Shown piece after piece: positions 971 to 12,234 of a stretch of DNA of 25,088 nt. Positions within the stretch are counted from its first letter, which is position 1; each line of letters opens with the position of its first letter. The position numbers and the translations under genes were made by a program. The notes under the pieces were generated by a model. The model made no database searches and had not been told where the DNA came from. It saw only the letters and a program-made list of their open reading frames with translations. Source of the DNA: a virus; IMG/VR virus record IMGVR_UViG_3300002040_000748, positions 1 through 25,088 of that record; one strand, written 5' to 3'.

Positions 971-1898
971 CACCGGCAACAACCCGGAGTTCTCCAACGA
1001 GATGGCCCGGCGTCTCGTGCGCATCCGGCTCGATCCGCACACAGACCGCCCCTGGCAGCGCTCGGACTTCCGCCACCCCGACCTGATGAGCTGGGTGCGC
1101 GCCAACCGGGCGCGGCTGGTCGCGGCCTGCCTGACGCTCTGCCAGGCGTGGATCGCCGCCGGCCGCCCGCGCGGCGGGCGCAGCATCGGCTCCTTCGAGA
1201 ACTGGGCGCACGTGCTCGGCGGCGTGCTCGAGGTCGCAGGCATCCCCGGCTTCCTCGGCAATCTCGAGGAGATGATGGAGTCCTCCGACAGCGAGGGCGC
1301 CGCCTGGAACGCCTTCATCGGCGCCTGGTGGGACCGCTTTGGCACTGCCGAGGTCACGGCCGCCGAGGTCTACGACATCGCGCTCTTCTGCGATCCGCCG
1401 CCGCCGATGAGCGGCGCCAACGAGCAGGCCCGCAAGACCAGCTTCGGGATGTCGATTGGGCGCATGCGGGACCGGGTGTTCCGGCTGGGCGATCTCCGCG
1501 TCCGGCTGGTGAAAGCTGGCACGTACCGGCGCGCCACGAAGTGGCAGCTGAAGGTCACCGAGGAGGAAAAGGCCTCGGGAGCGGCCCGCCGCAGCGCCGA
1601 TGCGTGTGAGCCTCGGGCCGGTCGTGTGAGCCTCGAAAACGAAGGCTCACACGCGCAAGGCCCTGATACCAAACCGAAATGTGAACCTTGTGAGCCTTGT
1701 GAACCTTTTTCCACCCTTACGCGTGCGTGCACGCGCGTGCGCACGAAAGGAGATGCCGGAAAAGGTTCACAACCCTCACAAGGCTCACAAATCGACTTCG
1801 TTTCAACGGGTTGCGAGTGTGAGCCTCCGTGTGAGCCTTCCGAGGCAGGCTCACAGGCCTCACCGCGCCCCGATTGGCTGCGGGAGCTCGACCGATGA
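963..1898 (+). CDS. Truncated phage primase-helicase, C-terminal fragment (311 aa)
   Basis: Residues 1-215 resemble the C-terminal third of the virus-type primase-helicases of alphaproteobacterial prophages: the sensor-like ATGNNP followed by an RR/RIRLDP stretch, then FRHPDL.SWVRANRARLVAA and a GGxLEVAGIPGFLGN block. Walker A and B and any primase domain are absent, so helicase activity is unlikely from this ORF alone. ATG 963 has a GAAAGG only 2 nt upstream, a poor initiation site, so translation is uncertain. Residues about 215-300 are low-complexity, alternating Cys-Glu-Pro and Gly-Ser-Gln. This is simply the translation of a direct and inverted TGTGARCCT repeat array, so the DNA rather than the peptide is probably selected here. 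The stop overlaps an ATG at 1895. Confidence 0.75.
   Translation: MAATGNNPEFSNEMARRLVRIRLDPHTDRPWQRSDFRHPDLMSWVRANRARLVAACLTLCQAWIAAGRPRGGRSIGSFENWAHVLGGVLEVAGIPGFLGNLEEMMESSDSEGAAWNAFIGAWWDRFGTAEVTAAEVYDIALFCDPPPPMSGANEQARKTSFGMSIGRMRDRVFRLGDLRVRLVKAGTYRRATKWQLKVTEEEKASGAARRSADACEPRAGRVSLENEGSHAQGPDTKPKCEPCEPCEPFSTLTRACTRVRTKGDAGKGSQPSQGSQIDFVSTGCECEPPCEPSEAGSQASPRPDWLRELDR
1605..1864 (+). repeat. TGTGARCCT iteron array, candidate replication origin
   Basis: Forward copies of TGTGARCCT start at 1605, 1625, 1680, 1689, 1698, 1818 and 1830. Inverted copies (AGGYTCACA) start at 1643, 1763, 1781 and 1847, with degenerate inverted copies at 1772 and 1855. Three head-to-tail 9-mers (1680-1706) face three inverted 9-mers (1763-1789) across 56 bp, giving a near-perfect 32-bp inverted repeat that includes the flanking TTTTCC/GGAAAA. 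Position inside the 3' end of a replication gene parallels lambda ori within gene O. Origin function is inferred. Confidence 0.75.
1718..1745. other. 28-bp alternating purine-pyrimidine tract between the iteron arms
   Basis: Every base from 1718 to 1745 alternates pyrimidine and purine, mostly CG and CA/TG steps, the composition expected to adopt Z-DNA under negative supercoiling. It sits at the middle of the symmetric iteron arms. A structural role at an origin is a guess. Confidence 0.5.
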
Positions 1899-2473: not shown

Positions 2474-2679
2474 GCGGGATGCGCTACACGCCCAAGGGCT
2501 ACGGCGGGCCCCGCCGTGACCCCGAGCAGGTCAAACGCGAGGGCTGGCACGAGCAGCGAATGCTCGCGGTCTCGCTGGATGATCAGCGTCTCACCTGGCC
2601 GGAGCGCGAGTTGATCCGTCAAATTGGGGACAAGCTCTACGGCAAGCCGCCCGCGGTCCGCGAGGTGCGCCATGACTGA
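2470..2679 (+). CDS. Small KGYGG-motif hypothetical protein (69 aa)
   Basis: A short basic protein opening with SGMRYTPKGYGG and followed by charged, helix-like sequence containing TWPERELIRQIGDKLYGK. I do not know its function. The start overlaps the RuvC-like stop (ATGA) and the end overlaps the DUF6362 start at 2672, so it belongs to a tightly packed operon. Its first 12 residues are matched by the broken frame at 932, implying the ancestral element carried two related copies of this gene. DNA binding is possible from the charge but unproven. Confidence 0.7.
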   Translation: MSGMRYTPKGYGGPRRDPEQVKREGWHEQRMLAVSLDDQRLTWPERELIRQIGDKLYGKPPAVREVRHD

Positions 2680-3118
2680 CTGGACCACCGCGCAGGTGCA
2701 GGACCGCTTGGAACTCGCCGCCGACGTCTTCGCGCAGCTGCCCGCGGTAAAGCCGCAGGGCTACTTCAACGCCTGGCCCGAGTACTTCCACAGCTTCGCC
2801 GATCAGGTCGGCCAGGAGCCGCAGATGCGCCGGCCCCGGCCGGGCCCGCGCGAGATCACCGAGGCCGAGGAGGCAATGCTCTGGTTGCGCTGGCTCGAGA
2901 AGGACGACGCGCAGATCGTGTGGCTGCGGGCGAACCGGAAGCCCTGGAAGCCGATCTGCTGGCAGTTCGGGCTGTCGCGCACGGCGGCGACGAAGCGCTG
3001 GCAGTACGGCATAGCCATCATCGTCTGGCGCCTGAACGGTCGCGTTCCATCCCGGCGGCGCTCGCAACAGTTCGTCATTGAAAACGCGGATCGACTGTCA
3101 AGAAAAATCATCCTTTGA
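2672..3118 (+). CDS. DUF6362 family phage protein (148 aa)
   Basis: The sequence matches, from memory, the prophage family DUF6362: an N-terminal LAADVF.QLP block, the aromatic YFNAWPEYFHSFADQVG segment, then a PRPGPREITEAEEAM linker, and a C-terminal WKPICWQFGLSRTAATKRWQYG stretch that reads as a helix-turn-helix. The HTH suggests nucleic-acid binding, perhaps a late regulator, but no function is established to my knowledge. ATG 2672 overlaps the end of the previous ORF. This is the last gene before a 417-bp non-coding stretch; the base composition drops over its last 60 bp. Confidence 0.8.
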   Translation: MTDWTTAQVQDRLELAADVFAQLPAVKPQGYFNAWPEYFHSFADQVGQEPQMRRPRPGPREITEAEEAMLWLRWLEKDDAQIVWLRANRKPWKPICWQFGLSRTAATKRWQYGIAIIVWRLNGRVPSRRRSQQFVIENADRLSRKIIL

Positions 3119-3535: not shown

Positions 3536-4903
3536 ATGACCCTCGCCTTCGCCCCCGAGCGGATCGAGACCTGGCCGCTTGCGCGCCTGCAGCCCTACGC
3601 GAAGAACGCGAAGGTGCACGGGCCCGACCAGGTCGCGAAGATCGCCGCCAGCATGGCCGAGTTCGGCTGGACCGTGCCCTGCCTCGTCGGCGAGGACGGC
3701 GAGGTGATCGCGGGCCATGGCCGCATCCTCGCCGCCGAGACGCTGGGCATCAGCGAGGCGCCGGTCATCGTGCTCGGGCACCTGACCGAGGCGCAGCGGC
3801 GAGCATACCGGATCGCTGACAACCGCCTGGTCGAGAGCCCCTGGGATGATGCGCTGCTCGCTGCCGAGCTGAAGGACCTGCTGGCCGAGGATTTCGACCT
3901 CGCGCTGACCGGCTTCGACGACGGCGAGCTCGACAAGCTGCTGGCGCTGGACCCCGACGTCGAGGACGGCGCCGCGCCGGGCGGTGGCCACGCTCCGGTC
4001 ACCATTCCCGAGCCGCCGCGGAACCCTGTCTCACGGACGGGCGACCTCTGGCTGCTCGGTGATCACCGCCTGCTCTGCGGCGACAGCACCAGCCACGACG
4101 ACGTGCGTCGCCTGATGAACGGCGAGCGCGCGGCGCTGTTCGCGACCGACCCGCCCTATCTCGTGGACTACGACGGCTCGAACCACCCGACGCGCAACAA
4201 GGATTGGAGTCAGAGCTACGGCGTGACCTGGGACGACAGCAGCCAGGGCGCCGAGCTCTACGACGGCTTCATCGCCGCCGCCGTCGCGGAGGCCATCGCG
4301 GAGGATGCGGCCTGGTACTGCTGGCACGCCTCGCGCCGCCAGGCGATGCTGGAGGCCTGCTGGGAGAAGGCGGGGGCCTTCGTCCACCAGCAGATCATCT
4401 GGGTGAAGGACCGCGGGGTCCTGACCCGCTCGCACTACCTCTGGAAGCACGAGCCCTGCTTCATGGGCTGGATCAAGGGCAAGCGCCCGCCAAAGGTGGC
4501 CGACGAGACGCCGCCTTCGACCTGGGAGATGCCGAGCTTCGCGAAGGACGAGCGTCCCGACCACCCGACGCCGAAACCGCTCGACGCCTTCGGCATCCCG
4601 ATGCGCCAGCACGTCGCCCGCGGCGGGCTCTGCTACGAGCCTTTCTCCGGCTCGGGCTCGCAGATCATGGCGGGCGAGGCCAACGGCCGCCGCGTCTTCG
4701 CGATGGAGATCAGCCCGGCCTATGTCGATGTCGCCGTGGAGCGATGGCAGGCGGAGACCGGCCGTGCCGCGGCGCTCGACGGCGATGGCCGGAGTTTCTC
4801 CGAGATCGCGGAGGAGCGGCGCGGCGTGACGGCAGCCGAGGACCCGCCGCAGGAACAGGCCTGCGTCGAGAAGCCGACGCGGCGGCGGAGCAAGGCAGCG
4901 TGA
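3536..4903 (+). CDS. ParB-like nuclease domain fused to DNA methyltransferase (455 aa)
   Basis: Residues 1-130 form a ParB/Srx-type domain with the characteristic GEVIAGHGRILAA motif (residues 55-67). Residues 165-410 form an amino-methyltransferase of beta-type order: catalytic DPPY (205-208) first, HPTPKPL (343-349), then the AdoMet-binding EPFSGSGS (368-375). It should methylate adenine N6 or cytosine N4 in phage DNA, a common defence against host restriction; target specificity cannot be read. The C-terminal 45 residues are charged and disordered, ending in a basic run. ATG 3536 is chosen because AGGAA lies just upstream; a GTG at 3485 would add 17 residues running through the repeat array. 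No cognate restriction enzyme is nearby. The stop overlaps the next start. Confidence 0.9.
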   Translation: MTLAFAPERIETWPLARLQPYAKNAKVHGPDQVAKIAASMAEFGWTVPCLVGEDGEVIAGHGRILAAETLGISEAPVIVLGHLTEAQRRAYRIADNRLVESPWDDALLAAELKDLLAEDFDLALTGFDDGELDKLLALDPDVEDGAAPGGGHAPVTIPEPPRNPVSRTGDLWLLGDHRLLCGDSTSHDDVRRLMNGERAALFATDPPYLVDYDGSNHPTRNKDWSQSYGVTWDDSSQGAELYDGFIAAAVAEAIAEDAAWYCWHASRRQAMLEACWEKAGAFVHQQIIWVKDRGVLTRSHYLWKHEPCFMGWIKGKRPPKVADETPPSTWEMPSFAKDERPDHPTPKPLDAFGIPMRQHVARGGLCYEPFSGSGSQIMAGEANGRRVFAMEISPAYVDVAVERWQAETGRAAALDGDGRSFSEIAEERRGVTAAEDPPQEQACVEKPTRRRSKAA

Positions 4904-7284: not shown

Positions 7285-7842
7285 GTGCAGGGCCTGAGCG
7301 AGCGCGCCTACGCCGAGCGGATCGGCATGTCGCGTGGCGCGGTCCAGAAGGCGAAGGCGGCGGGGCGGCTGGTCCTGTTTCCCGACGGCTCCATCGATCC
7401 GGCGGCGTCGGACGCCCGGCGCGTCGCCGAGACCGACCCGTCGAAGCAGCGCGCCACCGCGCCCACGCGCATGAAGCCCGTCCCCGAGGCTGCGGTCGCC
7501 GCCGTCGGCGACACGCTGCGCGACAGCGGCATGGCCGCGCCGGTCACCGGCGGCGGCACCACGTTCCTGCAGGCGAAGACCGCGAACGAGGTGCTGAAGG
7601 CGCAGGAGCGCAAGCTCAGGCTCGCGAAGCTGAAGGGCGAACTCGTCGAGCGTGACCGCGCGAAGGCGCTGGTGTTCCGGCTGGCGCGCGAGGAGCGCGA
7701 CGCGTGGGTGACCTGGCCCGCGCGCGTCGCGGCGCTGATGGCGGCGGAGATCGGCGTGGAGGCGGCCGCGATGCAGACGGTTCTGGAGACCCATGTCCGC
7801 GCCCATCTCGACGCGCTTGCGGAGCTCCGCATCGGTCTTTGA
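7285..7842 (+). CDS. Terminase small subunit (185 aa)
   Basis: The N-terminal 45 residues carry a winged-helix/HTH typical of Nu1-like terminase small subunits (SERAYAERIGMSRGAVQKAK, then GRLVLFPDGSID), expected to recognise the packaging site. The middle is a Pro/Ala linker. Residues 95-135 form a charged helix (NEVLKAQERKLRLAKLKGEL) for oligomerisation, and the C-terminus should contact the large subunit. GTG 7285 is the first plausible start after an in-frame TGA at 7264; its Shine-Dalgarno is weak. It overlaps TerL by 50 bp. Position directly before a GpA-type large subunit supports the call. Confidence 0.85.
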   Translation: MQGLSERAYAERIGMSRGAVQKAKAAGRLVLFPDGSIDPAASDARRVAETDPSKQRATAPTRMKPVPEAAVAAVGDTLRDSGMAAPVTGGGTTFLQAKTANEVLKAQERKLRLAKLKGELVERDRAKALVFRLAREERDAWVTWPARVAALMAAEIGVEAAAMQTVLETHVRAHLDALAELRIGL

Positions 7843-11538: not shown

Positions 11539-12198
11539 CTAGTTCACATCACAACCTTGCCTCTCACATTCGTCTCTAGCGATTTCCGGCTGAAACTCTG
11601 GTCGTGTCCCGTCGGGCTGGTCACTCGGGTCGGTGAAGTCGTCGTCGAGGATAATGCGCCGAATACCGGGCTCGCCGCCGGTTAGCCCACAGCCCGGTCC
11701 GAAGCCTTCGCAATCGGGTGTGTCCGGCGCCGGACATGGATTTCCCGGCTGGCCATGTTCACATGTATCCCTCGCGATTTCCGGCTGAAACTCTGGCCGT
11801 GTCCCGTCGGGCTGGTCACTCGGGTCGGTGAAGTCGTCGTCGAGGATAATGCGCCGAATACCGGGCTCGCCGCCGGTTAGCCCACAGCCCGGTCCGAAGC
11901 CTTCGCAATCGGGTGTGTCCGGCGCCGGACATGGATTTCCCGGCTGGCCATGTTCACATGTATCCCTCGCGATTTCCGGCTGAAACTCTGGTCGTGTCCC
12001 GTCGGGCTGGTCACTCGGGTCGGTGAAGTCGTAGTCGAGGATAATGCGCCTGTCGGTTGGCGGACAGAGAATTCGACCTTGCTCGTCACTAGAGCAAACG
12101 CCGATCGAATTGTTTGGGTAAAGACCCTCGGAAAACACAACCGACGGAAGCACTAAGCCTACCACAGAAGACGCGTAGACTAGCTTTTTCAACAACAT
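11539..12198 (-). CDS. Secreted Cys-rich repeat protein, candidate moron (219 aa)
   Basis: The protein starts with a signal peptide: KK near the N-terminus, a hydrophobic core (LVYASSVVGLVLPSVV), and likely cleavage near VFS/EG. The mature part contains a 65-residue unit, repeated about 2.4 times, that begins RRIILDDDFTDPSDQPDGTR and has four Cys (DTCEHG, NPCPAP, PDCEGF, GPGCGL). The protein is strongly acidic and rich in Pro and Gly, so an exported, disulfide-containing, perhaps surface-exposed product is expected. No family is recognised. ATG 12198 is chosen over GTG 12204 because GAGG lies 5-6 nt upstream. It runs antisense to the flanking late genes, is lower in GC, and separates portal from protease; foreign origin is inferred. 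Confidence 0.75.
   Translation of the reverse strand: MLLKKLVYASSVVGLVLPSVVFSEGLYPNNSIGVCSSDEQGRILCPPTDRRIILDYDFTDPSDQPDGTRPEFQPEIARDTCEHGQPGNPCPAPDTPDCEGFGPGCGLTGGEPGIRRIILDDDFTDPSDQPDGTRPEFQPEIARDTCEHGQPGNPCPAPDTPDCEGFGPGCGLTGGEPGIRRIILDDDFTDPSDQPDGTRPEFQPEIARDECERQGCDVN
11578..12050 (-). repeat. 195-bp tandem repeat, about 2.4 copies
   Basis: Copies begin at 11581, 11776 and 11971 (period 195 bp, 65 codons). The two full copies differ at one base (T/C near 11602/11797), and the partial third (to 12050) has one further change (GTCGTC to GTCGTA). The in-frame period and near identity indicate a recent duplication able to expand or contract by recombination. Confidence 0.95.
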
Positions 12199-12234
12199 TA
12201 ACACCTCGCGAAAAATGAGTGCGCACCAAAGCGA

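Follow-up and report, generated by a model that had tools for sequence, protein, structure and literature searches.

A candidate replication origin within the 3′ end of a primase-helicase gene from temperate phages of Alphaproteobacteria, with a winged helix encoded by this gene as its apparent reader

Described initiator-origin systems and the locus in comparison

The Rep helicases of SaPIs bind iterons located just downstream of their own gene by a C-terminal domain, apparently as two hexamers (PMC7581432). In P4, the alpha protein combines a TOPRIM primase, a helicase and an origin-binding winged-helix domain in one polypeptide; the winged helix binds the repeats of the origin, and the protein then unwinds and primes the DNA (PMC4234260). 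In lambda, the initiator O binds origin iterons that are part of gene O itself (PMC3985674). In the PLE satellites of Vibrio, the DNA-binding domain of RepA and the origin covary and swap as a module, and escape from the origin-directed nuclease Odn of ICP1 is a possible reason for the turnover of these origins (PMC8263062). Finally, residue-base pairs between initiator and iteron were inferred by comparison for the iteron-related domain of geminivirus Rep (Arguello-Astorga and Ruiz-Medrano, 2001, as presented in PMC12548392).

The locus described here is an array of 9-bp iterons at the 3′ end of a primase-helicase gene. It resembles the SaPI Rep system in the C-terminal DNA-binding domain and in the position of the short-iteron candidate origin (PMC7581432), and the helicase fold is predicted to be similar to that of SaPI Rep/PriRep1 as well as SCCmec Cch and Cch2. 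SaPI primases are of the AEP type (PMC7581432), whereas here a TOPRIM primase and DUF7146 are fused N-terminally. Further differences from SaPIs are the placement of the putative origin within the coding sequence, the near-dyad array and its alternating purine-pyrimidine centre. Like the lambda iterons, the array lies within the gene of its presumed initiator, but lambda O is not a helicase, belongs to a different protein family and recognizes four 19-bp iterons. The PLE replicon differs by its unrelated RepA_N domain, its only two types and its noncoding origin, and geminivirus Rep is a rolling-circle protein of eukaryotic ssDNA viruses.

With the P4 alpha family the gene shares the fusion of a TOPRIM primase to a helicase, as judged from Toprim_3, DUF7146 and the helicase model. 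The type I iterons of P4 read GGTGAACAG, which is close to the xGKGARnnT frame of the present array, but the P4 binding sites lie outside the alpha gene, unlike the in-gene array. We know of no report on P4 of a motif turnover comparable to the one described below. The literature search yielded nothing specific on Z-DNA at phage origins or on the P4 iteron sequence.

Array, host gene and neighbouring genes

The window is the whole analysed stretch of 25,088 nucleotides from IMG/VR record IMGVR_UViG_3300002040_000748, and the record itself consists of this 25-kb window only. A motif search over all 25,088 bases detected 11 exact matches to TGTGARCCT, seven forward and four reverse, which are all located at 1605-1855; no match was found elsewhere in the window, and 100 dinucleotide shuffles gave a mean of 0.13 and a maximum of two matches. 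This agrees with the eleven exact 9-bp copies in both orientations that the original prediction had listed. The array comprises the following elements:

1605-1855, no strand assigned: iteron array with 11 exact copies of TGTGARCCT and one near copy in the near-dyad order >><>>> / <<<>><
1680-1706, + strand: tandem forward iteron triple with a period of 9
1763-1789, - strand: tandem inverted iteron triple, the middle unit (1772-1780) with one mismatch
1718-1745, no strand assigned: 28-nt tract of alternating purines and pyrimidines in the dyad centre, candidate unwinding or Z-DNA-prone element, from the sequence

The forward and inverted triples are separated by 56 bp (1707-1762), the dyad axis lies at 1734.5, and the inverted copy at 1643 is the exact mirror of the forward copy at 1818. 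Since the middle inverted unit at 1772-1780 (ACCCTCACA) carries one mismatch, three exact copies are mirrored by two exact copies and a near one. The arrangement that had been proposed, with three tandem copies mirroring three inverted ones across 56 bp, was thus found, except that the inverted copies are not all exact.

The arms at 1639-1709 and 1760-1830 are 79% complementary and forward and inverted copies can pair, so the repeats might act as RNA by forming a long hairpin, an attenuator or a terminator in the primase-helicase mRNA. This is very unlikely, as the centre folds no better than shuffled sequences (z 0.17, DNA parameters) and the sole Rfam match is far below the threshold, and on these two results an RNA structure was rejected. 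Moreover, pairing would explain neither the concerted change of tandem direct copies nor the covariation with recognition helix and wing, both of which are described below.

The gene that carries the array in its 3′ end codes for a TOPRIM primase-helicase of temperate phages of Alphaproteobacteria and is followed by two further genes considered here:

963-1898, + strand: ORF of 311 aa, the C-terminal third of a TOPRIM primase-helicase of about 977 aa, by homology to relatives
1955-2473, + strand: RuvC-like Holliday junction resolvase gene (phrog_159) adjoining the array, which served as linkage control
2672-3118, + strand: DUF6362/phrog_6836 gene, a conserved neighbour

The ORF at 963-1898 shares 49-97% identity, over the matched segment, with 80 viral loci. 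In the relatives the full-length gene comprises about 977 codons, contains DUF7146 and Toprim_3 and also matches the PHROG primase families phrog_10537 and phrog_510. Nucleotide homology between the window and these relatives begins only at 969. The gene in the window is N-terminally truncated and therefore without DUF7146, Toprim and the ATPase P-loop, so that this contig alone cannot encode an active full initiator; the array is intact despite the cut gene. The bases just before 969 belong to an additional copy of a small gene (VSGKRFTSKGYGG...); in the relatives this gene is located downstream, past the array. The junction of the copy with the helicase C-terminus (930-970) shows a microhomology, GCCACCGG, common to both. 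For positions 1-968 no clear match was detected in the seven related phage records searched. The junction may have been created in assembly, or else the prophage is recombinant and decayed.

An N6/N4 DNA methylase gene (PF01555) was identified at 3536-4903, where it separates the terminase from the replication genes. At 11539-12204, on the - strand and thus opposite to the neighbouring structural genes, lies an ORF whose product repeats a unit of about 65 residues (RRIILDDDFTDPSDQPDG...) in tandem.

The P-loop-like stretch of the helicase family reads KPAPGTGATL (locus L006, 3719-3745, protein residues around 575-583). In 60 sequences G177, G179, A180 and T181 are invariant, as is K173 upstream. 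The canonical Walker A lysine in GxxxxGK[S/T] was not found in these 60 sequences, which carry PGTGAT instead: its position is taken by an invariant alanine, and an invariant lysine lies seven residues upstream.

AF2 models were obtained for helicase plus winged helix (pLDDT 83) and for the winged helix alone (pLDDT 90). In structure, the helicase model comes closest to SaPI PriRep1 (7pds, Z 11.6) and the SaPI5 primase-helicase (7ola, Z 11.4), and it is also near pox D5/E5 and SCCmec Cch; in the comparison with the SaPI Rep and SCCmec Cch helicases, 5dgk scored Z 9.6. Predicted model and array position therefore point to a SaPI Rep-like organization: a D5/SF3-like AAA+ helicase that carries its DNA-binding domain at the C-terminus, with the iterons in the 3′ end of the gene. 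At the sequence level, phmmer and profile searches against PDB chains gave nothing significant and no match, hence no detectable homology, to SaPI Rep entries. The winged helix alone weakly resembles many generic winged helices with low scores, and the P4 domain 1KA8 is not among the matches listed.

Motif turnover and residue-base covariation among related phages

By one genome-contig scan and one further viral scan the set was widened to 242 loci, in each of which a 9-mer repeated in both orientations was sought. The array was present in 223 loci, and the consensus motifs fall into 36 versions, nearly all of the form xGKG[A/G]nnnT, among them TGTGAACCT, GGGGAACCT, GGGGAACGT, TGGGGACCT, CGTGAGGGT, GGTGAATGT, GGGGGGAGT and TGGGGGTCT. 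Forward and inverted copies of one genome share the same version, i.e., the motif changes in concert. Over the 223 loci the median array has 12 copies in 260 bp. The orders seen most often are >><>>><<(<)>><, in some cases with one more inverted copy, and the offsets from the helicase domain are near-constant. Each of the seven longer phage records (45-65 kb) contains 10-11 copies of the motif, exclusively in the array; the short repeats are clustered at one place of the replicon, as is typical of iteron-type initiator-origin systems.

No array was found in distant helicases at 27-31% identity (L272-L280) or in L163. In the short contig L101 (1520-1600) only two exact forward copies and some remnants are left of the array, in an unbroken frame; recombination between iterons could have shrunk it in this way, as could the assembly. 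No DNA-level match to the array was found among 50,697 phage genomes (GenBank phage records), and the helicase part is only about 30-36% identical to named phages (Caulobacter, Ruegeria and other phages). The plasmid matches listed cover at most about half of the query at 26-36% identity.

The peptide encoded by the array (CEP.../GSQ...) is the in-frame translation of the repeats, as stated in the original prediction and confirmed by the reading frame. A low-complexity peptide selected as protein, with the DNA repeats as by-product, would fit the observation that in nearly all loci no stop interrupts the frame within the core array. The codon positions speak against it. Within motif groups, codon differences in the helicase amount to about 0.06/0.04/0.28 at positions 1/2/3 and thus fall mainly on third positions, whereas those in the spacers between iterons are flat in the two groups of highest divergence (0.27/0.28/0.25 and 0.25/0.30/0.26), a profile expected of DNA under no coding constraint. 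Iteron third positions differ by 0.03-0.04 in two groups, by 0 in a third and by 0.167 among the loci with TGTGARCCT, where R=A and R=G both occur at one site; the grouping of loci by motif biases these iteron figures towards constancy and leaves the flat-spacer figures unaffected.

Furthermore, in 15 loci the open frame stops short of the last copy counted. In nine of them the stop lies at or near the usual gene end with only an outlying copy beyond, and in the other six, from four lineages (L003/L085, L018/L220, L193 and L188), a stop or frameshift is located inside the core array and the later copies are kept. The peptides, moreover, are completely different between motif classes. Selection of the repeats as a peptide can practically be dismissed, and it was rejected on the basis of the codon-position test and the broken frames. 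Selection at the DNA level, which had been proposed for the array, is supported by the concerted motif change, the spacers free of a codon signature, the constrained iteron third positions and the arrays with broken frames. Repeats drifting in relatives while the protein stays constant had been named as an outcome that would argue against it; the opposite was observed.

In the related loci the helicase domain is strongly conserved, and the 72 residues directly before the array are variable and can be aligned without gaps. In the window this region and its putative specificity residues are as follows:

1344-1559, + strand: winged-helix DNA-binding domain of 72 aa (w0-w71), the proposed iteron reader, from the AF2 model of the L006 orthologue and motif covariation
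1425-1451, + strand: putative specificity residues of the recognition helix, namely Q at w27 (1425-1427) for base 6, T at w31 (1437-1439) for base 7 and M at w35 (1449-1451) for base 8, from mutual information
1524-1535, + strand: putative wing-tip specificity residues Y-R-R-A (w60-w63; bases 1, 3 and 5), from covariation

The locus set contained duplicates between collections, and 105 distinct winged-helix sequences were left. For these, the mutual information between each motif base and 458 columns (72 of the winged helix and 386 of the helicase) was calculated. Among the 458 columns, base 3 shares most information with w61, base 5 with w63, base 6 with w27, base 7 with w31 and base 8 with w35, and base 1 tracks w60-w62. 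In the AF2 models, w27, w31 and w35 (i, i+4, i+8) lie on one face of the recognition helix, and w60-w63 form part of the wing tip. H61 occurs with G3 in 52 of 52 cases and R or Q with T3 in 50 of 52; T31 goes with C7 (71/72), I or M35 with C8 and K35 with G8. A natural pair of loci, L122 and L124, is identical up to the wing and differs in the wing, and the motifs are GGGGAACGT and GGTGGACGT.

Related sequences overstate statistical independence, and the main guards against this are tree-based tests and a held-out set. Pagel tests of correlated evolution on the helicase tree gave likelihood ratios of 110.7 for base 3, 75.2 for base 8, 60.9 for base 1, 56.1 for base 7, 42.9 for base 5 and 21.4 for base 6. 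The held-out set consisted of 18 new winged helices, obtained from an additional later scan plus one leftover of the first set, and the rules were taken from the first 105. Correct predictions numbered 17/17 for base 3, 18/18 for base 5, 16/17 for base 6 and 12/14 for base 8, compared with 4/18, 15/18, 7/18 and 8/18 for the commonest base, a baseline that is already high for base 5. Base 7 was predicted poorly (9/16 vs. 7/16 for the majority base), because V31 goes with either G or T. In L254, which has N at w61, the motif is TATGAGGGT, in which the otherwise nearly invariant G2 is replaced by A; N61 with A2 is possibly a further rule of the code.

The normalised mutual information reaches at most 0.16 for RuvC columns, vs. 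0.32-0.57 for the winged helix. Since the RuvC gene lies about as near on the other side of the array, plain linkage is insufficient as an explanation. The same comparison bears on a packaging (pac/cos) or recombination site for another phage protein, for which the resolvase gene next door and the iterated sites used by some small terminases might speak. This has very little probability, as the motif covaries with the primase-helicase's winged helix but not with RuvC, and the large terminase gene begins only at 7793, about 6 kb away from the array. Covariation and held-out prediction together point to a cognate initiator with a repeat-specific DNA-binding domain, as expected for an iteron-type system; the apparent reader of the array is the winged helix that its own host gene encodes as part of the primase-helicase.

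Proposed initiation at the array and its dyad centre

Based on these sequence comparisons, the array is very probably the replication origin of this phage family, located inside the 3′ end of the gene of its own initiator and bound by the winged helix of the latter. The earlier proposal of a replication origin is thereby well supported through the apparent own-gene reader and a predicted fold near that of the SaPI initiator helicases. The full gene product joins a TOPRIM primase to a D5/SF3-like AAA+ helicase, with a winged helix at the C-terminus. This last domain would bind each 9-bp iteron, xGKG[A/G]nnnT, with the recognition helix (w27, w31, w35) reading bases 6-8 and the wing tip (w60-w63) reading bases 1, 3 and 5. 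The opposed iterons on either side of the dyad could then assemble two helicase rings head to head around the tract of about 28 nt; that the rings face the centre is assumed by analogy with the SaPI initiators and P4 alpha. The duplex would open at the alternating tract, and bidirectional replication would start there.

Between the triples of the relatives, the alternating run has a median of 28 nt and is at least 13 nt long in 88% of the loci; in the helicase DNA such runs have a median length of 6 nt and do not exceed 14. Alternating purine-pyrimidine tracts can adopt Z-DNA under negative supercoiling, and the central tract may serve as the unwinding element.

A GC-skew analysis had been suggested as a check, and it gave a weak signal. 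In each of 16 long phage records, the skew of the 6 kb to the right of the array exceeds that to the left. Six records reach their cumulative minimum no more than 0.7 kb from the array, the other ten have the global minimum elsewhere, and gene-strand content was estimated only crudely. As the 16 records are related, these counts are not independent, and the skew weakly supports an origin at the array without proving it.

An array bound by the winged helix could also be a regulatory or incompatibility site, acting in copy control, autoregulation or titration of the initiator like P4 crr, and not the origin. Iteron arrays outside origins are known to act in copy control, and covariation or binding evidence by itself does not show initiation. 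This explanation is rather improbable in view of the near-dyad layout with a special centre in most loci, and autoregulation from the 3′ end of a gene would be unusual. Since the array is the sole motif cluster in the seven longer phage records, there is no separate cluster in these that could be the origin.

Going beyond the original prediction, an origin at this site is now accompanied by a host gene, a putative reader domain, an alternating purine-pyrimidine centre and a motif turnover across the family. As a more tentative extension, these phages may represent a widespread family with diversified initiator-origin pairs, an inferable amino-acid-to-base code and in-gene origins, in which a Z-DNA-prone dyad tract might replace the AT-rich unwinding element and the fast turnover of motifs might be driven by incompatibility of co-resident prophages or by origin-directed nucleases.

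The candidate origin and its apparent reader would add an origin type and a reader domain for a large uncharacterised group of alphaproteobacterial prophages. With 36 motif versions and homologous winged helices that can be aligned without gaps, the family provides a natural experiment in protein-DNA recognition, and the residue-base rules predict most bases in new phages. The family raises the question whether an alternating purine-pyrimidine tract can replace an AT-rich unwinding element, and it makes initiator specificity, origin incompatibility of prophages and the rules of winged-helix recognition directly testable.
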